In this document: positions 3,968 to 64,000 of the stretch, piece after piece
Numbering within the stretch: the first letter of the stretch is position 1
How the letters are laid out: the number at the start of each line of letters is the position of its first letter
Source of the DNA: Rheinheimera sp. A13L
GTDB lineage: Bacteria; Pseudomonadota; Gammaproteobacteria; Enterobacterales; Alteromonadaceae
DNA length: 64,000 nucleotides
Reading direction: 5' to 3'
Assembly (NCBI RefSeq): GCF_000217935.1
Contig: NZ_AFHI01000007.1
Span: forward strand, 62,001 to 126,000
Notes under the pieces: generated by a model
Told to the model about the DNA's origin: nothing
The model's input: only the letters and a program-made list of their open reading frames with translations
The model's database searches: none
Made by a program: the position numbers and the translations under genes

Positions 3968-4346
3968 CACAGTTCTCTCCTTTTAACAGTTCTTTGCCTC
4001 TTCACTGTGTCGCTGAAGGTTGTTGCCAGCAACTACAATCCGGTAAGCAGAGACAAAAGAACCACTTTGAGTTGCAACCTCGTCAATAAAGATAGCCAAA
4101 ACACAATTTTTTGCATCAATATTTTTACATATTTAAAACAAAATAAACCTGACGAATTGGAAGTACCACAAGTAAAGCAGCCAACAAAGCTGCGGCTTCA
4201 AGTACGACGGGTAAAAGTGTTCAGCAGCAATTCAGACCTTAGTTCTTATACTTTCAACGATTTGTCTGATGTTAAGGATTGCCGCCGCAGACAGAGTGTT
4301 TTAGCATAACCCCACTTTGTTTGTACCAGTTTAAAAAGGAAGCCCC
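3968..4346. other. 379-bp divergent intergenic region
   Basis: This AT-rich stretch separates the minus-strand helix-hairpin-helix gene from the plus-strand response regulator. It should hold both promoters, but no -35/-10 pair is good enough to call. A 100-codon frame at 4007-4309 has no ribosome site and no recognisable domain, so it is not called a gene. Confidence 0.5.
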
Positions 4347-5024
4347 ATGCGTTTATTAGTTGTTGAAGACGAGACTTTATTGGCGGAACAAATCCGCGAG
4401 CATTTGGTGCAACAGCAATTTAGCGTAGACGTAGCCCATGATGGTGCAGACGGCTGGTTTAAGTTAAGCGAATACCCTTATGATCTGGCAATTATTGATA
4501 TAGGCCTGCCTAAAATGGATGGTCTGAGTCTTATTCGTAAAGCCCGTCAGAATGAAATTAAAACTCCTGTCATTGTATTAACAGCCCGTGGCAGCTGGCA
4601 GGAAAAAGTGGAAGGACTGGACGCCGGAGCAGATGATTACCTGACCAAACCCTTTCATACTGAAGAGCTGCTGGCACGTATTAATGCTTTAATTCGACGT
4701 GCTGCAGGGCAGCCCGACCCAATGCTGCATTCTGGTCCTGTGAAGCTGAACAGCAGAACTCAGCAAGTCTGGCTTGGTGAGGACGAAGTCAGCCTGACCG
4801 CTTATGAGTACAAAGTGCTGGAGTACTTTATGCACAACCCAAATAAAGTCATTTCCAAAACTGAGCTGACAGAACACATTTATGATCAGGATTTTGATCT
4901 GGACAGTAATGTGATTGAGGTCTTTGTATTGCGTCTGCGGAAAAAACTGGATCCGGAAGGCGAGTTAAAACCTATCGAAACACTGCGTGGACGTGGTTAC
5001 CGTTTCACCATGGTTGTCAGCTAA
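4347..5024 (+). CDS. OmpR/PhoP-family response regulator
   Basis: This is a 225-residue two-domain regulator. The receiver domain covers residues 1-120, with acidic residues E7/D8, the phospho-acceptor D51, T79 and K101 all in place. A winged-helix DNA-binding domain (about 130-225) ends in the typical RGRGYRF block. The sequence is closest in style to PhoP/QseB-type regulators. AAAAGGAAG precedes the ATG. The stop codon directly abuts the ATG of the following sensor kinase, so the two are translationally coupled and form one two-component system. The signal it responds to is not evident; PhoP-like is an inference from overall similarity. Confidence 0.92.
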   Translation: MRLLVVEDETLLAEQIREHLVQQQFSVDVAHDGADGWFKLSEYPYDLAIIDIGLPKMDGLSLIRKARQNEIKTPVIVLTARGSWQEKVEGLDAGADDYLTKPFHTEELLARINALIRRAAGQPDPMLHSGPVKLNSRTQQVWLGEDEVSLTAYEYKVLEYFMHNPNKVISKTELTEHIYDQDFDLDSNVIEVFVLRLRKKLDPEGELKPIETLRGRGYRFTMVVS

Positions 5025-6347
5025 ATGCAGTTATCGCTCAAGGTTCGTCAGGGTATTATCAGCCTGTTTTTGCTGTTCTTTTTATTACCCAGTTCATTTT
5101 TTGCGATAGAACAGGCTTTTTATACCCAACTGCTGACCAGTACTGAGCAAAAACTTGAAGTACATATGTACTCCATTTTAGCCGAAGTGCACCCAAATGA
5201 CGGCAAAGTGGAGCTGAGTAACAACCTGCTGCCACCGGACTTTTATCGGCCAGACTCAGGTTTGGCCGCTTTTATCACCAGCGAAAACGAATTGTTATGG
5301 CAGTCCGATTCTTCTATTAATCAGCAGTTTGACCCGCCCACTCATCAGATTTTGCCTGCCTCACATGAATTTGTATTGATGGAACAATACCAACAGAAAT
5401 ACTGGGTATTGTCTTTTTCTGTGCTGTTTGACTTAGGTGATAACACACTGCCGCTGACCATTCATGTAGTGCAAAATGATCAACTGTTGCAGGAGCCACT
5501 CGACACCTTTAGAAAAACCCTGAGCCAGTGGTTTATTGGTATAGCTTTGGTGCTGATAGGTTTAACTTTGTTAGCCTACTATTGGATCACTAAGCCTTTA
5601 ACTTCTTTAGATAAAGAAATCCACAAGCTCGAAAGTGGTCAACAGGAACAACTGCTGCACGACTACCCTTCTGAGCTAAACAAAATTAAAGAAGACTTAA
5701 ACCTGCTGCTGGCCAATCAGAACAGGCAAAAGCAGCGCTACCGTCATCACTTAAGTGACTTAGCCCATGCGCTAAAGACTCCTATAGCCGTGTTACGCAC
5801 CTCTAAGCTGTCTGAACAGCCTGAGCTGCGTGAACAGCTTGACCGTATTACCGGCATGATAGAGCATCAGTTAAAACGGGCTTCAAGTTCAGGCCAGGAT
5901 TTATGGCATAAGCAAATTAAAGTAAAACCCTTGATTGATAAACTGGAGCAAGCTTTAAGTAAAATTTATCGGGATAAAGGTTGCCTCATTGAAATTCAGT
6001 GCACCGATCAGGTGGTATTTCGTGGGGATGAAACCGATTTGATGGAGATATTAGGCAACCTGCTTGATAATGCCTGCAAAGCTTGTAACGGACGGGTAAA
6101 AATCAGTGCTTTTGGCAAACCGCTGCAACTGGATATTGAAGATGATGGCCCTGGAATACCCCAGGATAAAAGAGAAGAATTGTTTCAGCGCGGAACCCGG
6201 CTGGATACCTACAAAGAAGGGCATGGTGTAGGTCTTTCTATTGTCTCTGAGTTGGTGAAATCCTACTCAGGTGAACTCCAGGTTTCCCAGAGCCCTTTGG
6301 GTGGGGCGCGTTTTGTCATTCGTTTTCCGGAGTCAGGACTAAAATGA
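5025..6347 (+). CDS. PhoQ-like membrane sensor histidine kinase
   Basis: This 440-residue kinase is partner to the adjacent regulator. Membrane segments lie near residues 8-28 and 168-188 and enclose a periplasmic sensor of about 140 residues. A HAMP-like linker (190-240) follows, then the phospho-acceptor box LAHALKTP with H248. The ATP-binding domain has an N box (LDNACKAC), DDGPGIP and GHGVGLSIV. The LAHALKTP form of the H box is typical of PhoQ-type kinases. Its stop overlaps the ATG of the next small gene (ATGA). Confidence 0.9.
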   Translation: MQLSLKVRQGIISLFLLFFLLPSSFFAIEQAFYTQLLTSTEQKLEVHMYSILAEVHPNDGKVELSNNLLPPDFYRPDSGLAAFITSENELLWQSDSSINQQFDPPTHQILPASHEFVLMEQYQQKYWVLSFSVLFDLGDNTLPLTIHVVQNDQLLQEPLDTFRKTLSQWFIGIALVLIGLTLLAYYWITKPLTSLDKEIHKLESGQQEQLLHDYPSELNKIKEDLNLLLANQNRQKQRYRHHLSDLAHALKTPIAVLRTSKLSEQPELREQLDRITGMIEHQLKRASSSGQDLWHKQIKVKPLIDKLEQALSKIYRDKGCLIEIQCTDQVVFRGDETDLMEILGNLLDNACKACNGRVKISAFGKPLQLDIEDDGPGIPQDKREELFQRGTRLDTYKEGHGVGLSIVSELVKSYSGELQVSQSPLGGARFVIRFPESGLK

Positions 6348-55797: not shown

Positions 55798-57279
55798 CTA
55801 TTGAGCGGTAAGCAGACTAAACCAAAACACTGCTCCGCCAGTTTCGCGAGCTCTATAGCCGATATTTCCTCGCATTGATTCGACCAGGCCCTTGCTGATC
55901 GCCAATCCTAGTCCTGAGCCTTCAAAAGCTCGATTTGTTGCACCGTCTTGTTGACTAAATTGAGTGAATAAATAAGGTAAAAATTCTGTTTTAATACCTG
56001 GGCCCTGATCCTCTATGGATATGATAACGACTTTATCTTCATGTTTTACATCCACCCTTACTATAGTGTTGGGCGCAGAGAACTTAATGGCGTTAGATAA
56101 CAAATTTGAGATGACTTGCATAAAACGCAATTGATCGACCAAGACCTTAATTGGCTGTTTCGGGATACTCAACTTCAGGGAGATCCGTTTGTCTGGCAGA
56201 TAAAGTTGATTTTCTGCAATCGCCTCTTCAAGTAAGGGCTGTAATAATAAAGATTGCATGTTAACTGACAGCTTGTTTGTTTTTAGTTTTGAAAAGTCCA
56301 ATACCTCAGTGACCAGGCTTTTTAGCCTGTTCGCGTTGTTGACCGTTATGCCTATCAGTTTTTTCGCTTTTTCAGGAATGTCACCCAACTTACCTGAGCT
56401 TAATAAATGCAGACTCCCCAGAATAGAAGTCAGTGGTGTCCTCAGTTCATGACTGATTGTCGCAATAAAGTCGTTCTGCAGTTTTTCATAGTTCTTTCGC
56501 TTGCTGATATCGCTGATTAGCAAAATAAACTGCATGTTACCCAAGACAAGGGATGAATTAAGTTGTCTGATTTGCAGCTGAACATCAATGTTTTCGCCAG
56601 TATCTCTGAGCAACTGAGTTTCGAATGTCGCGGGCAATAAAGTGCATTGTGAAGAATCAGAGTCAGTGCGAAGTACTTCATGAATGCTCTGGTCAGAAGC
56701 CAGATCCTGACTAAAAAAATTCAACACTGATTTATTCACTAAATCTGAAACCGGTTGTGCAAATAAGATCTCAGCTCCAGAATTGGCAAAACAAATGTCG
56801 CCATGTTTTGATATAGCTAAAATAGCAACGTCCTGGGCGCCATCAAGCACGGTTTGAAGCATATATTTGTTAGCTTCAGTTTCTTTTATAAGGAGCTGCA
56901 TCTGCTGTCTGGTATGGATTAACTCTTGTTCAAAGCTTGCCCTTTGCTCCGCCGGAAGAATAACCCAGCGATAACAGGATTGTTGCTCAAAAGTACCCTC
57001 TTGGACGTTAAGTAATACCGGCAAAGGTGCTAATGGCTCTCGCTTAATTTTCAGATACAGTTCGCTCACAGCTCCATTTTTTCGTAACAAAGGCCATAAA
57101 TGTGTTTGGAGAAAGATAGTGGCTGCAGGTGGAAAAAGTTGCTCAATTTGTAGATGGCGAGTCTGATCTGAAATAGAAAAAGTAGCTAACGCATATTGGT
57201 TAATAAATAAAATCGCTCCATGCAGGTCTGTCACCACCACAGAGCATGGCAAAGCATCCAGCTCAGGTGACCCACTCAA
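55798..57279 (-). CDS. PAS-PAS histidine kinase partnered with RsbQ-like hydrolase
   Basis: This 493-residue cytoplasmic kinase has a PAS domain at about 8-110 and a second PAS at 140-260. The HisKA box FIATISHELRTPLTSILGSL has H277, and the ATPase domain has LLSNAIKFSA, EDQGPGI and GSGLGLAIS. No membrane segment or receiver is present. It begins inside the last codons of the RsbQ-like gene (4-base overlap), so the hydrolase and kinase are made together. The arrangement parallels Bacillus RsbQ-RsbP, with a kinase in place of the PP2C phosphatase. Confidence 0.9.
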   Translation of the reverse strand: MSGSPELDALPCSVVVTDLHGAILFINQYALATFSISDQTRHLQIEQLFPPAATIFLQTHLWPLLRKNGAVSELYLKIKREPLAPLPVLLNVQEGTFEQQSCYRWVILPAEQRASFEQELIHTRQQMQLLIKETEANKYMLQTVLDGAQDVAILAISKHGDICFANSGAEILFAQPVSDLVNKSVLNFFSQDLASDQSIHEVLRTDSDSSQCTLLPATFETQLLRDTGENIDVQLQIRQLNSSLVLGNMQFILLISDISKRKNYEKLQNDFIATISHELRTPLTSILGSLHLLSSGKLGDIPEKAKKLIGITVNNANRLKSLVTEVLDFSKLKTNKLSVNMQSLLLQPLLEEAIAENQLYLPDKRISLKLSIPKQPIKVLVDQLRFMQVISNLLSNAIKFSAPNTIVRVDVKHEDKVVIISIEDQGPGIKTEFLPYLFTQFSQQDGATNRAFEGSGLGLAISKGLVESMRGNIGYRARETGGAVFWFSLLTAQ

Positions 57280-58091
57280 GAGTTTAACTCCGTCTTGAGG
57301 TACTGATTGATTGCATCAATCACTAAATGCGGATGACTCATATGAGCAGCGTGACCCGATACATCCAAGACTTGTAAGCGACTATCTTTAATCTGTTGCT
57401 GGACATAACGACCAACCTCCAGAGGAGCGAGCAGATCGCGCTGATGCTGCAAAATAAGACTCGGGACAGATAGTTTGGCAAAATCCGCTCTATTGTCCGC
57501 AAAAAAAGTGGCTTGTGCAAAGTGCCGGGTGATCACCGGGTCGGTGGAACAAAAACTATCGGAGAGCTGGCCTGATACTTTTGGATCGTTTTCCGCCCCA
57601 GCCACTATAGGGCCCAAATAACTCGCCCAGCCTAAGTAATTCTGATCCATCAATTCAAGCAGACCGTCAAGATCTGCTTTGTCAAAACCCCCATGATAAT
57701 CCGGAGGCATGTTTATAAAACAAGGAGATGGCCCAAGCAGAATCATTTTATGAAAGAGCCCTGGTTTTGCGTTGGCGGCCAGAATTCCTATGCTACAACT
57801 GACAGAATGCCCAATGAAAATGACATCACGTTCAAGTTTTAACGCATCGCATATTTCGAGAAGGTCCTGAGCATAACCATGAAGCGTGGAATAGCGTTTA
57901 AAACTATAGTTATTAATTTCTGACTGACCGCTACCAACAAAATCAAACACTATCTGGCAGGTGTTTTCCCTAAAAGCGGGTGTAATTGCCTCCCACATCG
58001 TTTGACTGCAGCCAAATCCGTGTGCGTAAATGAGTACAGGCTTGTTCATATCTCCGATGATCTGAACGTTATTACGGCGCAAAATAGTCAT
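57276..58091 (-). CDS. RsbQ-like alpha/beta hydrolase, signal-sensing partner
   Basis: This 271-residue alpha/beta hydrolase is very close in layout to Bacillus subtilis RsbQ: HGFGCSQTMWEAITPAF, IVFDFVGSGQS, LHGYAQDLLEICDALKL, FIGHSVSCSIGILAA, LLGPSPCFIN and CSTDPVI all match by eye. The catalytic triad falls at S96, D219 and H247, the same numbers as in RsbQ. RsbQ and plant KAI2/D14 relatives bind and hydrolyse small ligands for signalling. The ATG at 58091 follows CCGGAG; the longer in-frame start at 58166 is unlikely. Confidence 0.88.
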   Translation of the reverse strand: MTILRRNNVQIIGDMNKPVLIYAHGFGCSQTMWEAITPAFRENTCQIVFDFVGSGQSEINNYSFKRYSTLHGYAQDLLEICDALKLERDVIFIGHSVSCSIGILAANAKPGLFHKMILLGPSPCFINMPPDYHGGFDKADLDGLLELMDQNYLGWASYLGPIVAGAENDPKVSGQLSDSFCSTDPVITRHFAQATFFADNRADFAKLSVPSLILQHQRDLLAPLEVGRYVQQQIKDSRLQVLDVSGHAAHMSHPHLVIDAINQYLKTELNS

Positions 58092-58404
58092 ACAAAACTC
58101 CGGATTTCGCTGAAATATGGCTCTGTTCAATCTAAGCTGACTTGTCAGTTTAATGAACTGAGCCAATCTTTTCTCTCACTATTTGGCTTAATTGATTAAG
58201 CTATTATCAAATATATCGTTTTTTTTGATTTTAGGCTAAGACTTCATCACATAAATATAGGTTGAAGTGGTAGATGTCATTGACTTAGAAGAGATTAAGT
58301 CAATGCTTGCACTAAAGCTTTAAACAAAGCTATTGTGCATTAAATAAGTTCATTGTCTGTAGAGACTTTGCCGCAGGTGAGCAATTTAAGGAGCGAGATC
58401 GACC
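58092..58404. other. 313-bp divergent region between rsbQ-like and hybrid kinase genes
   Basis: This AT-rich gap with divergent promoters should drive both signalling units. AAGGAG at 58388-58393 serves the plus-strand kinase. No promoter pair is strong enough to call and no small gene was seen. Confidence 0.5.
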
Positions 58405-61296
58405 ATGGAGTCATTTACAAACCGCACACCCAAGTTCTGGACTTACTTAATATGTTCTCTATTTGCATCAGTAATTATCAGTGCGGCATTCGTCACTAAT
58501 GCGCTGCGCAATACTCAGTATCAAAGCCGATATGATCATATATATGCTGAAGAACTCAATACTCTGGAAAAAACTAAAGCAGAATTAATGCAACAGGCAT
58601 TAATGACGGCGCAGCTGATAGAGAAAAATCGGTTGGTTACAGAGTTATTGGTTCAGGCCTCCAGTTCTTATCAGAATTCTGCGCCTGAGCAAGAGTTACG
58701 TCCTATCAGAGAACAACTGCATCAGATAGTTTCTCCCTATTGGCAATACCTTCAACAGTATGGAGCTAAGCAACTGCACTTTCATTTGGCGCCTCAGGCA
58801 TTTACTTTATACCGAGCACACAAACCAGAGTTTCATAGTGATGTGTTGGCTGATGTTCGGCCTTTGGTCGTTGAAGTATTGAAAACAGGACAAGCTTTTA
58901 GCGGATTGGAGATTGGTCGTAACGGTTTGGGCTTAAGAGCTGTTGTACCTGTGAGCCAAAATAATAAAGTGATCGCAGCCATCGAGGTTGGTTACGGCTT
59001 ATCAGGCGCTTTAAGTTTAAAGCAAAGCTCTCTACCAGATAAAAGCTCTCAAAATTCTGGTATAGCATTTGTTATCAATAAAACCTTACTTGAGGTTATG
59101 ACTGATGACCAGCGAGCTAAATTCAGTGCAGGCAGCACGCTGTTCTGGAGTACTGAAGATAGCGCCTTACAAGAAACAGCGCTTCTTCAGCATATCCCGG
59201 AAAGGGTCAACAGCTCTGCATTTTTATCCGTTCAACAAGACGGCAGGACTTTCCTTTTAACGTTGATGCCGTGGCCTGAATTTAAACAATCCGGCTCTGA
59301 AGCAGGTGTTGTATTGGTAAATTGGTTAGATATCACGTCAATGCAGCATGAAAAATCACGTGATGATTGGATTCTAAATATAATCTGGCTTATTGCACTT
59401 TTGATGGGGCTGGCATCTGTGTATACGATCAGTACTAAACTGCAAAAAAGTACTGCACGGTTCACCGAGCAAAGACAAAAAGAGCTGTTGTGGTCAGAGA
59501 AAAAACTACGGGCTCTGTTTGATTTATCTCCCGACTCTATTGCACTCAATAGACTATCTGACGGAGTCTATCTGGAAATTAATCCGGCTCTGGAAAAACT
59601 AACAGGATACAATTTTGAAGAGCTTCAGCAACTCAGTTACTTTGATTTAACACCTGAAACTTTTGCAGCCCAGGAACAAGAACAATTGCGCCTGCTTAAT
59701 GAAACAGGTCGATATGGCCCGTATCGTAAACAATACCGTCATAAGAACGGCCATCTTGTTGATATAGAGCTTCGCGGCGTTAAATTTGTCAGCCCGTCGG
59801 GTGAAGAAATGATTTGGTCTACCATTACTGATTTGACAGAAACCTTAAAATTGGATCGCTTAAAGCAGGATTTTATATCGACTGTTAGCCATGAGTTGCG
59901 AACTCCGTTGACTTCGATCAATGGTTCATTGGATTTACTCCTCAGTGGTGCCGCAGGTGAATTACCTGCAAAAGCCGAAAAGCTTTTAGGCATAGCGGTT
60001 AAAAATAACAAGAGATTGATTGCATTAGTCAATGACCTACTTGATATGGAAAAGCTTTCGCAAGGCAAACTCGCTTTTCATACAGAGTTTGTCAGCAGTG
60101 CACTGTTGCTACAAAGTGCAATAGAGCATAACCAGCCTTTTGCCCAGCAACATAAAGTAGAACTGAAGTTAGGTCAGACAGATGATGTTCTTCTGCATGT
60201 AGACCCTGCAAGGATACAGCAGGTGTTAGCAAATCTGATTTCTAACGCTGCCAAGTTTTCTCCCCAAGGATCCATTGTCTCTGTCTATAGTGTGTTAAAA
60301 CCACACCTGTTACGTATTGCCGTTGCTGATCAGGGGCGTGGCCTGACTGCAGAGCAAATTTCAAGGCTTTTCCAGCGTTTCTCTCAATTAGATAATGTTA
60401 ATAACAGAGAGACCGCAGGCTCAGGACTTGGACTTGCCATTAGCCGGGATATCATATCGCAAAGCAACGGACAGATAGGCGTCGACTCCGAATATGGTGC
60501 CGGCAGTACATTTTGGATTGAATTACCTCTGGTAGATAAGGCAGAACAACCTATTCTTACCAAAAAAATTCTGGTCGTTGAAGATGATGCGGATACTGCT
60601 TTTACCATTCAGGAATTACTTGCTGCGAATGGCTACACTGCAGATGTTGCCCATACACTGGAGCAAGCCTGGTTATTATTACAACAACGCACCTATGATC
60701 TTATTACTTTGGATCTGAACTTAAATGGTGAAAGTGGCAGTGACTTTTTTCTACGATTACGAGACTCCTCAGACTATGCGCACTTACCCGTTCTGGTCAT
60801 TTCTGCTTATATCCATCAGGGAAAGTTGGCACTTAATGCGATAGCAAATACGGTAGATTGGTTGGAGAAGCCTGTTAATTCAGAAGTACTGAGCCAGAAA
60901 ATAGAGTACTTACTATCCCAGGGTAACTCATCGGGTTCGGCTTCACGTATTCTTCATGTTGAAGATGATGAAGACATTGTATCTATTTTGAAAATGCAAC
61001 TGGAACCCATCTATCATTACCATCATGCAGCCAGCCTCGCAGAAGCACGACTAAAGCTCAGAACAAATCAGTATGATCTGGTGTTATTGGATATAGGATT
61101 ACCTGATGGCGAGGGCTGGCAGCTGTTTCCGGATCTGGAGCTATTGCATGGAAAAGTTCCTGTGATTATTTTCTCAGCTCAGGATATTAGTGTGAATCAA
61201 CGAAATCAGGCGACAGCTGTGTTTGGCAAAACCAAAGTACAGCCTTCGGCATTAGTCCAACATATAGCGCAGATGCTAAACGCTGTACATCCTTGA
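58405..61296 (+). CDS. dCache-PAS hybrid histidine kinase with two receivers
   Basis: This 963-residue membrane kinase has helices at about 12-34 and 322-344, flanking a periplasmic double-Cache (dCache_3-like) sensor. The sensor blocks are LHFHLAPQAFTLYRAHKPE and SGLEIGRNGLGLRAVVPV. A PAS domain (365-480), HisKA with H496 and an ATPase domain with GSGLGLAIS follow. Receiver 1 has D770 and K822; receiver 2 has D896 and a degenerate Lys region (GKTKV). The adjacent stand-alone receiver gene, 12 bases downstream, is a likely phosphorelay partner. Confidence 0.93.
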   Translation: MESFTNRTPKFWTYLICSLFASVIISAAFVTNALRNTQYQSRYDHIYAEELNTLEKTKAELMQQALMTAQLIEKNRLVTELLVQASSSYQNSAPEQELRPIREQLHQIVSPYWQYLQQYGAKQLHFHLAPQAFTLYRAHKPEFHSDVLADVRPLVVEVLKTGQAFSGLEIGRNGLGLRAVVPVSQNNKVIAAIEVGYGLSGALSLKQSSLPDKSSQNSGIAFVINKTLLEVMTDDQRAKFSAGSTLFWSTEDSALQETALLQHIPERVNSSAFLSVQQDGRTFLLTLMPWPEFKQSGSEAGVVLVNWLDITSMQHEKSRDDWILNIIWLIALLMGLASVYTISTKLQKSTARFTEQRQKELLWSEKKLRALFDLSPDSIALNRLSDGVYLEINPALEKLTGYNFEELQQLSYFDLTPETFAAQEQEQLRLLNETGRYGPYRKQYRHKNGHLVDIELRGVKFVSPSGEEMIWSTITDLTETLKLDRLKQDFISTVSHELRTPLTSINGSLDLLLSGAAGELPAKAEKLLGIAVKNNKRLIALVNDLLDMEKLSQGKLAFHTEFVSSALLLQSAIEHNQPFAQQHKVELKLGQTDDVLLHVDPARIQQVLANLISNAAKFSPQGSIVSVYSVLKPHLLRIAVADQGRGLTAEQISRLFQRFSQLDNVNNRETAGSGLGLAISRDIISQSNGQIGVDSEYGAGSTFWIELPLVDKAEQPILTKKILVVEDDADTAFTIQELLAANGYTADVAHTLEQAWLLLQQRTYDLITLDLNLNGESGSDFFLRLRDSSDYAHLPVLVISAYIHQGKLALNAIANTVDWLEKPVNSEVLSQKIEYLLSQGNSSGSASRILHVEDDEDIVSILKMQLEPIYHYHHAASLAEARLKLRTNQYDLVLLDIGLPDGEGWQLFPDLELLHGKVPVIIFSAQDISVNQRNQATAVFGKTKVQPSALVQHIAQMLNAVHP

Positions 61297-61986: not shown

Positions 61987-64000
61987 TTGAATAAGCAGGC
62001 TGAAGCTTTATTGAAGTACCGATGGTCTTTGCTGGTCTTTCTGGTAGGCATCACGCTTAGTGTGTTACTGGGATACCAAACCCAGAGCAACAATATGCTG
62101 CGTATTAATCAGGCGATGCAAGGGGCGCTTGATCTCGTCTCAGAGGACATCTTAACCAAAGTAAAGCTATACCAGTATGGTTTACGCGGTGCCAGAGGTT
62201 CAGTATTAACCGCAGGTGAGCATGGCATCAGTCGGGCACTATTTTACCGCTATAGTCTAACTCGTGATGTTGATCTGGAATTCCCCGGGGCTCGCGGTTT
62301 TGGTTTTATCCGTAGAGTGCCTGTCAGTGAGACGCCACAGTTTTTAGCAAATGCGCGTGCAGACGGCTGGCCTGAGTTTAGTATCAGGGAATTATCGCCG
62401 AACTCAAAAGAGCGCTATGTAATTCAGTACATTGAGCCTGTTGAACGAAACAAAGCCGCAGTGGGTTTGGACATCGCCTCAGAGCATAATAGATATGCTG
62501 CCGCAAAATCGGCCATGCTGAGTGGTGAAGTCAGATTAACCGGTCCCATTACTCTGGTGCAGGCGTCAGGTTTACCTGCACAATCATTTTTAATACTGAT
62601 GCCTCTGTATCGGAGCGTGAAAACACCAGAGACAGCTGCAGAGAGGGAAAAACAAGCTTTTGGCTGGAGTTATGCGCCCCTGATCATGACCGAGGTATTA
62701 GCTCATGTCAGAGTAGATGCCAATAAATTTATACTTAGCCTGGATGATGTGACTGAAACAGAAACTCCGGTTCGTTTTTTTAATAATGCTGTGGATGCAA
62801 CGGGCTTGTACCCTTTAAACGCCGTACAAACTATCTATGGGCGCAGCTGGCGCTTTAATATGGCGGCTCAACCTGCATTTATTCACAGCATGCATTTACA
62901 ATCGCCTGTTCAACTCGGCTTGTTTGGCGCCATGGCTTCTTTGCTACTTGCACTGCTTGCTGGCTTAGTTGAGACTAATCGAAGAAATAGAGAACGATTG
63001 TTTGCGCAACAAGCCAAGCTGGTTTCATTAGTGGAGAGCTCAGCGGACGGTATTATTTCTTGCACTCTGGATGGCAGAGTTTTAAGTTGGAACAAAGGTG
63101 CCGAATCACTCTTTGGTTACACCAGTGAAGAAGCTATAAACACAGAGCTACAAAGTTTGATCGCTCAGCCGTTGCTGGCCAACGAATTGTCAGCCAGACT
63201 GCAGCGCGTGGCGCAAGGTCAATCAATCACCAATTATCACACTGTGCATAAAACAAAAAGCGGCTCACTGATTGATGTTTCTGTCACTTTATCGCCTATT
63301 TATGCTGAAAACGACAAGGTTGTAGCAGCATCAAAAACCGTAAGGGATATTTCTGCGCAAAAATTAGCTGAAGCTGAAGTTCGCGAATTAAATACGAGTT
63401 TAGAAGCCAAGGTAGCTCAACGAACGGCGGAGATCGCCAGTCTCAATCTATTATTCAAAAATGTACTTGCTTCAGCATCCGACTTTGCCATCATGGCCAC
63501 AGATATGCAGGGGACGATCCAGTTATTTAATCGGGGCGCTGAGCTTTTATTAGGCTACAGTGCGGATGAAATCATGGGACAAGCAACGCCTTTGCTGTTC
63601 CATTCTGCAGAAGAGCTTGCTCGTCGTCTTGGTGCTGTTGATGAAAAGCATCCGCTTTTATCTTCACCTGATTTTCAGAGCCTCATTGAGCTTTCAGAGC
63701 ACAATGAGGGTTTCAGGGAATGGTGTTATCTGCACAAAGAGGGCCTAAAGATAGATGTCAATCTGGTCATCACTGTAATGCGTGATGATAAGCATCAGCT
63801 GGTTGGTTATCTCTTTATTGCTACAGATATTACCCTGCAAAAACAAAAACAAAACCAGCTGATATCCACACAACAACAGCTAAGCAGTCAGACTGAACAG
63901 TTGACCTTAGCTTACAAAGTTGCAGAATTAGGTATTTGGGAATGGCGAATAGCAGACAATTCCCTGGTATGGAATGACAAAATGTTCGAATTTTACGAGC
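61987..64000 (+). CDS. CHASE-PAS multi-PAS sensor kinase/cyclase (3' truncated by window)
   Basis: The open frame runs from TTG at 61987 (after AAGGA at proper spacing) to the window end, at least 671 codons. A membrane helix (about 12-30) leads to a CHASE domain (about 50-290) with LYQYGLRGARGSVL and FPGARGFGFIRRVP blocks. A second helix (about 309-328) and PAS domains near 343-460 and 488-620 follow. A third PAS starts at about 650 (AELGIWEWRIADNSLVW). The output domain is beyond the window, so kinase or GGDEF cannot be decided. It follows the receiver gene on the same strand. Confidence 0.85.
   Translation, partial: MNKQAEALLKYRWSLLVFLVGITLSVLLGYQTQSNNMLRINQAMQGALDLVSEDILTKVKLYQYGLRGARGSVLTAGEHGISRALFYRYSLTRDVDLEFPGARGFGFIRRVPVSETPQFLANARADGWPEFSIRELSPNSKERYVIQYIEPVERNKAAVGLDIASEHNRYAAAKSAMLSGEVRLTGPITLVQASGLPAQSFLILMPLYRSVKTPETAAEREKQAFGWSYAPLIMTEVLAHVRVDANKFILSLDDVTETETPVRFFNNAVDATGLYPLNAVQTIYGRSWRFNMAAQPAFIHSMHLQSPVQLGLFGAMASLLLALLAGLVETNRRNRERLFAQQAKLVSLVESSADGIISCTLDGRVLSWNKGAESLFGYTSEEAINTELQSLIAQPLLANELSARLQRVAQGQSITNYHTVHKTKSGSLIDVSVTLSPIYAENDKVVAASKTVRDISAQKLAEAEVRELNTSLEAKVAQRTAEIASLNLLFKNVLASASDFAIMATDMQGTIQLFNRGAELLLGYSADEIMGQATPLLFHSAEELARRLGAVDEKHPLLSSPDFQSLIELSEHNEGFREWCYLHKEGLKIDVNLVITVMRDDKHQLVGYLFIATDITLQKQKQNQLISTQQQLSSQTEQLTLAYKVAELGIWEWRIADNSLVWNDKMFEFYE

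Follow-up and report, generated by a model that had tools for sequence, protein, structure and literature searches.

An RsbQ-PAS module with a histidine kinase output beside a phosphorelay cluster in Rheinheimera sp. A13L

What does a hydrolase of the Bacillus RsbQ type do in a gammaproteobacterium, where its gene overlaps that of a histidine kinase? The question is raised by a gene pair in a 64,000-nucleotide stretch of Rheinheimera sp. A13L (contig NZ_AFHI01000007.1; hereafter, the window), in which an initial annotation recognised an RsbQ homologue coupled to a PAS histidine kinase. This observation is sound. The two genes almost certainly constitute an RsbQ-PAS bipartite module, and the pair is a well-formed further example of a published module, to which the phosphorelay neighbourhood and a second module in the same genome (4.52 Mb, 71 contigs) are the additions. 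To the explanation as a whole, i.e., an RsbQ-PAS module with a kinase output that would be relayed to cyclic di-GMP (c-di-GMP), we assign a probability of roughly 0.6; the gene content, the class residues, the linkage and the recurring neighbourhood are observed. The gene pair comprises the following features.

57276..58091, minus strand: RsbQ-family alpha/beta hydrolase, 271 aa, triad S96/D219/H247 (by homology and alignment)
55798..57279, minus strand: histidine kinase, 493 aa, PAS (RsbP class)-PAS-HisKA-HATPase_c, TTG start
56953..57267, minus strand: PAS1, RsbP class, about residues 5-109 (by class residues and model)
56509..56859, minus strand: PAS2, ordinary PAS domain with a DIS motif at its end, about residues 141-257
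56281..56478, minus strand: HisKA (dimerisation and histidine phosphotransfer domain, DHp), HELRTP motif at His277
55810..56136, minus strand: HATPase_c

The hydrolase is a true RsbQ homologue, as had been proposed. Its best match among the PDB sequences (phmmer) was RsbQ itself (1wom/1wpr, E 8.5e-87), followed by 3qvm (Olei00960, E 2e-76) and, from about 1e-50, by KAI2/D14; 126 of the 266 columns aligned with B. subtilis RsbQ (1wom) were identical, and the triad numbering (S96, D219, H247) was exactly that of the B. subtilis protein. The start was assigned to the ATG at 58091 rather than to an upstream TTG at 58166, which would give 296 aa, because homologues (e.g., L087, 271 aa) begin at the equivalent of this ATG. 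The hydrolase gene is upstream of the kinase gene, and the kinase start and the rsbQ stop share four nucleotides (TTGA), an overlap that is identical in the relatives of the window type. The overlap, the PAS-PAS architecture and the nature of the output, a histidine kinase and not a PPM phosphatase, had all been read correctly: PAS-PAS-HisKA-HATPase_c was detected in the protein.

The RsbQ-PAS module was catalogued by Nadezhdin, Brody and Price in 2011 (PMC3183031), whose accessible text lists 45 RsbP-PAS homologues adjoining RsbQ, with PPM phosphatase, histidine kinase (in Gram-negatives) or diguanylate cyclase outputs and with extra PAS domains in 5 of the 45 proteins; kinase-coupled RsbQ modules of Gram-negatives were thus already on record. 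According to the same text, direct RsbQ-PAS contact was demonstrated for the B. subtilis proteins, mutation of Y59 in the B. subtilis PAS disrupts the interaction in a two-hybrid assay, and RsbQ triad mutants of B. subtilis are null. From what is available of a 2025 paper that cites this work (PMC12143880), an AlphaFold2 model of 2RsbP/2RsbQ places RsbQ between the PAS domain and the linker. No follow-up on Gram-negative RsbQ modules was recognised from titles and the beginnings of abstracts, a coverage that takes in few subscription journals.

The class residues given in 2011 (PMC3183031, accessible text) are C10, L13, L48, Q53, F55, C56, Y59, E72 and P86, plus a conserved P62. In this order, the equivalents in PAS1 of the window kinase are C12, V15, F49, T54, F56, L57, H60, E73 and P87, with P63 at the P62 site. 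PAS1 is therefore identical to the class at C10, F55, E72, P86 and P62 and hydrophobic at L13, L48 and C56; it has H at the neutral-aromatic Y59 site and departs from the class at Q53, where it has T. Over the 116 partner rows compared, P62 was P in 113, E72 was E in 108, P86 was P in 99, F55 was F in 84 and C10 was C in 65; at Q53, R or K was found in 73. PAS1 ends in CYRWVILPAEQR, without a DIT motif, and PAS2 has DIS; a DIT-like match at the end of the class PAS was found in 4/116 rows. From the class residues and the lack of DIT, the window kinase fits regularly into the class as published: a triad hydrolase is followed directly by a PAS protein in which the class PAS is the most N-terminal domain and an extra PAS precedes the output. 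General profiles recognise PAS1 poorly; Pfam gave PAS_8 at 21.8 bits, which is the cut-off value, and PAS1 as a query found no match among the PDB sequences at E 1 or better. In a low-depth AlphaFold model of the kinase (12 rows, mean predicted local distance difference test score 72, predicted template modelling score 0.39), residues 13-109 take the usual PAS strand/helix order, and residues 110-147 are predicted as a helix, after which PAS2 begins. A fold search with the kinase listed 50 matches, mostly PAS/LOV-type proteins, other histidine kinases and phytochromes.

Is the adjacency of the two genes more than chance? RsbQ genes were collected from a scan of genome contigs (29 loci), from the genus, from a class sample and from a family sample. 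RsbQ was found in 12 of the 22 genomes of the genus, in 3 of the 369 genomes of the class sample (including that of the window) and in 99 of the 395 genomes (18 of the 52 genera) of the family sample. In total, 148 RsbQ open reading frames (ORFs) above 150 bits were collected, 120 of them distinct; the places that the family table gives for G398, G723, G619, G595, G695 and G728 are not among the 120. A class PAS was encoded within 1.5 kb downstream in 117/120. The exceptions were L145, in which the genes are fused, L033, in which the partner is upstream, and L099, a 6-kb contig in which none was found. With the hidden Markov model (HMM) of the class PAS, the partners scored 19.8 to 177 bits (median 129), and PAS domains without RsbQ linkage scored at most 14.7 bits; this control left out 11 higher rows that are linked to RsbQ (duplicate loci, overlapping starts, the fusion and the upstream partner). 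The weakest partners (19.8-25.3 bits) are those of L057, at a contig end, and of L158 and L154, 1.3 kb away; these scores lie not far above that of the best PAS without linkage, and therefore the strict linkage count is 114/120.

An ordinary metabolic esterase that overlaps a kinase gene by chance is accordingly most improbable. The generic alpha/beta hydrolase fold and the NCBIfam matches of the hydrolase (only sub-threshold enol-lactonase and similar ones) would suit such an enzyme; the 117/120 linkage, the L145 fusion and the class-specific PAS residues do not, and on the linkage a chance neighbour was rejected as a general explanation. The relatives of the hydrolase are thus not solitary esterases, and the initial proposal is not undone by its own refuting condition, ordinary esterases without kinase linkage, although among the PAS partners the cyclases (76) outnumber the kinases (33).

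The outputs were tallied with self-built HMMs, and Pfam was run on 23 chosen proteins. Among the 117 partners we found GGDEF in 74, GGDEF-EAL in 2, HisKA-HATPase in 13, HisKA-HATPase-REC in 10, HisKA-HATPase-REC-Hpt in 2, HATPase without a HisKA match in 7, HisKA only in 1 and no output in 8. Two of the seven HATPase-only kinases were inspected (L148, L154) and have a HEINNP motif, which we take to be a kinase DHp of another type. The eight output-less partners are that of L057, cut by the contig end; those of L092 and L029, which are interrupted or early-ending kinases (the kinase ORF beside RsbQ at L092:7609-9099 is interrupted; that at L029:5813-6337 ends early near the contig edge); and those of L095, L096, L097, L032 and L160, which have no output domain. 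On the RsbQ tree (102/120 rows), four output labels required 6 changes, against 28.0 in shuffles; 17 rows without a GHS-type elbow (e.g., AHS, CHS, GNS) and L057 were left out, and the labels of L092, L029 and L033 (histidine kinase) and of L145 (diguanylate cyclase) were set by hand.

Several loci depart from the common arrangement. In L145 (3678-5426, minus strand) a single ORF of 582 aa encodes a hydrolase-PAS-GGDEF fusion, and its genome (G390, one contig) also carries an unfused module, L119. The upstream partner in L033 (2702-4963, plus strand) is BLUF-PAS (RsbP class)-PAS-HisKA-HATPase, which suggests a blue-light input joined to the RsbQ module. In L154 (RsbQ at 4333-5163) and L158 (4230-5060), about 1.3 kb with a 432-aa ORF, presumably a membrane transporter, separates RsbQ from the PAS-kinase (PAS, 25.3 and 21.7 bits, respectively). 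The RsbQ-like ORF without PAS in L099 (2727-3551, plus strand) is on the 6-kb contig, which is of unsure origin, and the adjoining ORF resembles, judging from its motif, what we assume to be a short-chain dehydrogenase. The RsbQ partner in L032 (5767-6621, plus strand) is PAS-PAS of 284 aa and that in L160 (3883-4233, minus strand) is PAS only, of 116 aa, both without an output domain. In L095 (8118-9735), L096 (7791-9402) and L097 (8508-10119; minus strand), RsbQ is accompanied by a PAS-PAS protein that terminates ahead of where HisKA would begin. The three loci come from different species of a single genus, with one genome for each, and the ortholog of the REC protein described below is absent there. 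The ratio of nonsynonymous to synonymous substitution rates in this PAS-PAS gene was 0.11-0.15 (NG86) or 0.16-0.28 (YN00), and 0.15-0.17 (NG86) in its second half; such low values indicate that the gene is kept by purifying selection. Note that L096 is close to L097, so that these amount in effect to one deep and one shallow comparison.

A second module was found in the genome of the window, on another contig (L002/L100): an RsbQ, 46% identical to that of the window, with a PAS-GGDEF protein, again with a 4-nucleotide overlap. In the genus, the kinase type is present in 4/22 genomes, and both types only in that of the window; in the family sample, kinase and cyclase types are also combined in G440 and G654.

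How would the hydrolase act on the kinase? In the mechanism we propose, RsbQ would bind, and may hydrolyse, a small molecule, and would dock on PAS1 near its F-alpha helix and the beginning of the helix C-terminal to PAS1; this docking on a co-translated cytoplasmic kinase would change the kinase activity. Such contact with PAS1 of the window kinase is probable; it is published for B. subtilis only and agrees here with covariation over 114/120 rows (L033, L099 and L145, without a separate downstream PAS, and L057, L154 and L158 were left out). The natural fusion in L145 lends it further indirect support. As a control, RsbQ-PAS pairs were compared with RsbQ-GGDEF pairs of the same polypeptide in 73 cyclase-type pairs. 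Of the 20 strongest pairs 19 were RsbQ-PAS, and of the 100 strongest 81 were, for an expected share of 0.47. The PAS columns frequent in the top 100 RsbQ-PAS pairs were W105, Y75, F116, H60, E117, T59, A114 and Q58, of which H60 of the window PAS1 is the equivalent of B. subtilis Y59; the covarying RsbQ positions were G120, L147 and Q150 together with H216, A249 and S252, the last three of which are next to D219 and H247 in the sequence. Since a simple shuffle null ignores shared descent, we relied on the GGDEF control and on shuffling within clades (25 shuffles; 9 or 12 groups), in which the maxima of the top-20 mean were 0.357 and 0.358, against 0.377 observed. Three points weaken this evidence: the largest single value in the control was an RsbQ-GGDEF pair (0.437, against 0.400), the single-pair maxima of the within-clade shuffles (0.480 and 0.450) exceed the observed 0.434, and a large part of the covariation between RsbQ and PAS tracks the deep clades. 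The excess over the within-clade shuffle is modest and is confined to the top-20 and top-100 means. The covariation is thus support for RsbQ-PAS contact, not proof.

For the mode of sensing, which is a matter separate from the identity of the module, two models were proposed in 2011 (PMC3183031, accessible text), and the gating by ligand hydrolysis initially suggested would be one of them. In the first, RsbQ hydrolyses a precursor and delivers the product to the pocket of PAS, which is the real sensor. This is quite possible, at odds somewhat short of even: the full triad is kept in 117/120 RsbQ (Ser 120/120, Asp 120/120, His 117/120), and the B. subtilis triad mutants are null. Against it, the catalytic His is replaced in L038 (P), L079 (N) and L155 (Q), where the region is otherwise aligned and the partners are PAS-GGDEF proteins; each variant is from one assembly, and error or decay is possible. 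In the second model, RsbQ is a receptor like KAI2/D14, its occupancy being relayed by contact and hydrolysis serving only to reset it. We hold this to be nearly an even bet, in view of the kinship to KAI2/D14, the covariation of PAS with sequence neighbours of D219 and H247, and the three natural His variants, with the reservation that covariation cannot tell occupancy from delivery. As to the ligand itself, the energy-, karrikin- or strigolactone-like molecule initially envisaged finds no support; in the text of PMC3183031 available, its authors grant that the energy link is without experimental support.

Where would the kinase signal go? Next to the gene pair of the window the following genes are found.

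58405..61296, plus strand: divergent hybrid kinase, dCache_3-PAS-HisKA-HATPase-REC-REC, 963 aa
61309..61695, plus strand: CheY-like single-domain response regulator (REC), 128 aa, candidate phosphotransfer partner
61987..64000, plus strand: CHASE-PAS-HisKA-HATPase-REC-REC-Hpt kinase, continuing beyond the last position of the window (full length 1547 aa in L086)

Beyond the window end, a GAF-PAS histidine kinase and then a 546-aa Hpt-REC-GGDEF protein are encoded. According to the proposed mechanism, the RsbQ-associated kinase would pass its signal to the phosphorelay encoded next to it (CheY-like REC, hybrid kinases, Hpt-REC-GGDEF), with a change in c-di-GMP as the result, and the second module would make c-di-GMP directly through its fused GGDEF domain. 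For the phosphorelay partner and the c-di-GMP output of the kinase module we put the chances just under even; the neighbourhood and the second module suggest that both modules of the genome act on c-di-GMP.

The neighbourhood recurs. Fourteen distinct modules of the window type were counted (the window, L087-L094, L020, L023, L024, L027 and L029; L021, a near copy of L020, was not counted). The CheY-like REC is close to 13 of them, the exception being L094, and relatives of the hybrid kinase adjoin some other modules. The cluster is divergent in the window, L087-L089, L020, L023, L024, L027 and L029, and is downstream on the same strand in L090-L093. The Hpt-REC-GGDEF protein is encoded within about 12 kb of 9/14 modules (the window, L087-L093 and L020); Pfam found Hpt, REC and GGDEF in all nine, with Hpt of L020 below the cut-off and GGDEF of L088 truncated at the edge of the locus. 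The stretches of L023 and L027 do not reach the corresponding position. Orthologs of the REC protein (at least 149 bits) were separated from paralogs (at most 109 bits) in the 34 genomes searched; in the genus, the ortholog was present in 4/4 genomes with the kinase module and in 1/18 without it. In a second genus (g288), among the 12 RsbQ-positive genomes examined, it was present in 5/5 of the kinase type and in 0/3 of the PAS-PAS output-less type.

Several observations weigh against a transfer of the signal to these neighbours. The REC protein is also present in 4/4 of the other g288 genomes (G449 and G745, cyclase type; G730, PAS-only; G619, of unassigned type) and is therefore not exclusive to the kinase type. 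L024 and L029 have REC and no Hpt-REC-GGDEF in the stretch examined; for L094, REC is on another contig, and the stretch examined likewise has no Hpt-REC-GGDEF. The copy of the latter protein in L090 also has EAL, is without a GG[DE]EF motif and could act as a phosphodiesterase. Furthermore, G013 (L161, G013:C71:84000-101000) has the hybrid kinase, REC, CHASE and GAF genes, 95-97% identical to those of the window over the pieces compared, and no RsbQ match. The cluster thus exists without the RsbQ-kinase pair, so that the neighbours have a function of their own and proximity may not mean phosphotransfer; the pair would seem to be an accessory input added next to a phosphorelay that is older.

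These observations bear on a further possibility, in which a DNA-binding response regulator encoded elsewhere takes the signal of the kinase to a stress regulon analogous to that under sigma-B control, and the local phosphorelay is independent. In its favour, the cluster is away from any RsbQ in L161-L166, the L094 module and the cluster are on different contigs, and the kinase query matched 45 places in the window genome (itself counted), so that other partners abound. We consider it unlikely, given REC near 13/14 window-type modules in differing gene orders, and retain the relay to c-di-GMP as the preferred reading of the locus.

More generally, and tentatively, since we would rather bet against it, RsbQ-PAS could be a portable receptor with outputs that, in this lineage, converge on c-di-GMP, either by a fused GGDEF domain or by a kinase feeding a REC/Hpt-REC-GGDEF relay, and that include an output-less PAS-PAS adaptor, which, having no output of its own, must act on its target in trans. 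A genome with two modules, one a cyclase and the other a kinase beside a cyclase relay, would offer c-di-GMP as a simple read-out for finding the ligand and would also help to separate binding from hydrolysis.

Compared with known systems, the window pair is most like the kinase modules of PMC3183031, which, from the accessible text, share RsbQ directly upstream, an N-terminal RsbP-class PAS, a kinase output, a Gram-negative host and an extra PAS. The three two-module organisms described there have the same kind of output twice, whereas here the outputs differ within one genome; the phosphorelay neighbourhood, the fusion, and the output-less and BLUF variants are not among the features met in the part of that paper available. 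RsbQ-RsbP of the B. subtilis sigma-B energy-stress branch has in common the identical RsbQ columns (126/266), the triad numbering and the main PAS class residues, but carries a PPM phosphatase in place of HisKA-HATPase_c. Olei00960 (3qvm), the second-best PDB sequence match, has a solved structure, and its PDB entry bears no functional name. The plant receptors KAI2/D14 belong by sequence to the same branch of the hydrolase family, but are more distant than bacterial RsbQ and Olei00960, and the partner of the window hydrolase is a PAS kinase. Finally, LuxPQ is an analogy in operation drawn in PMC3183031 (accessible text), in which a separate ligand binder (LuxP) docks on the PAS domains of the kinase LuxQ. 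Unlike RsbQ, LuxP is periplasmic and comes from another protein family.

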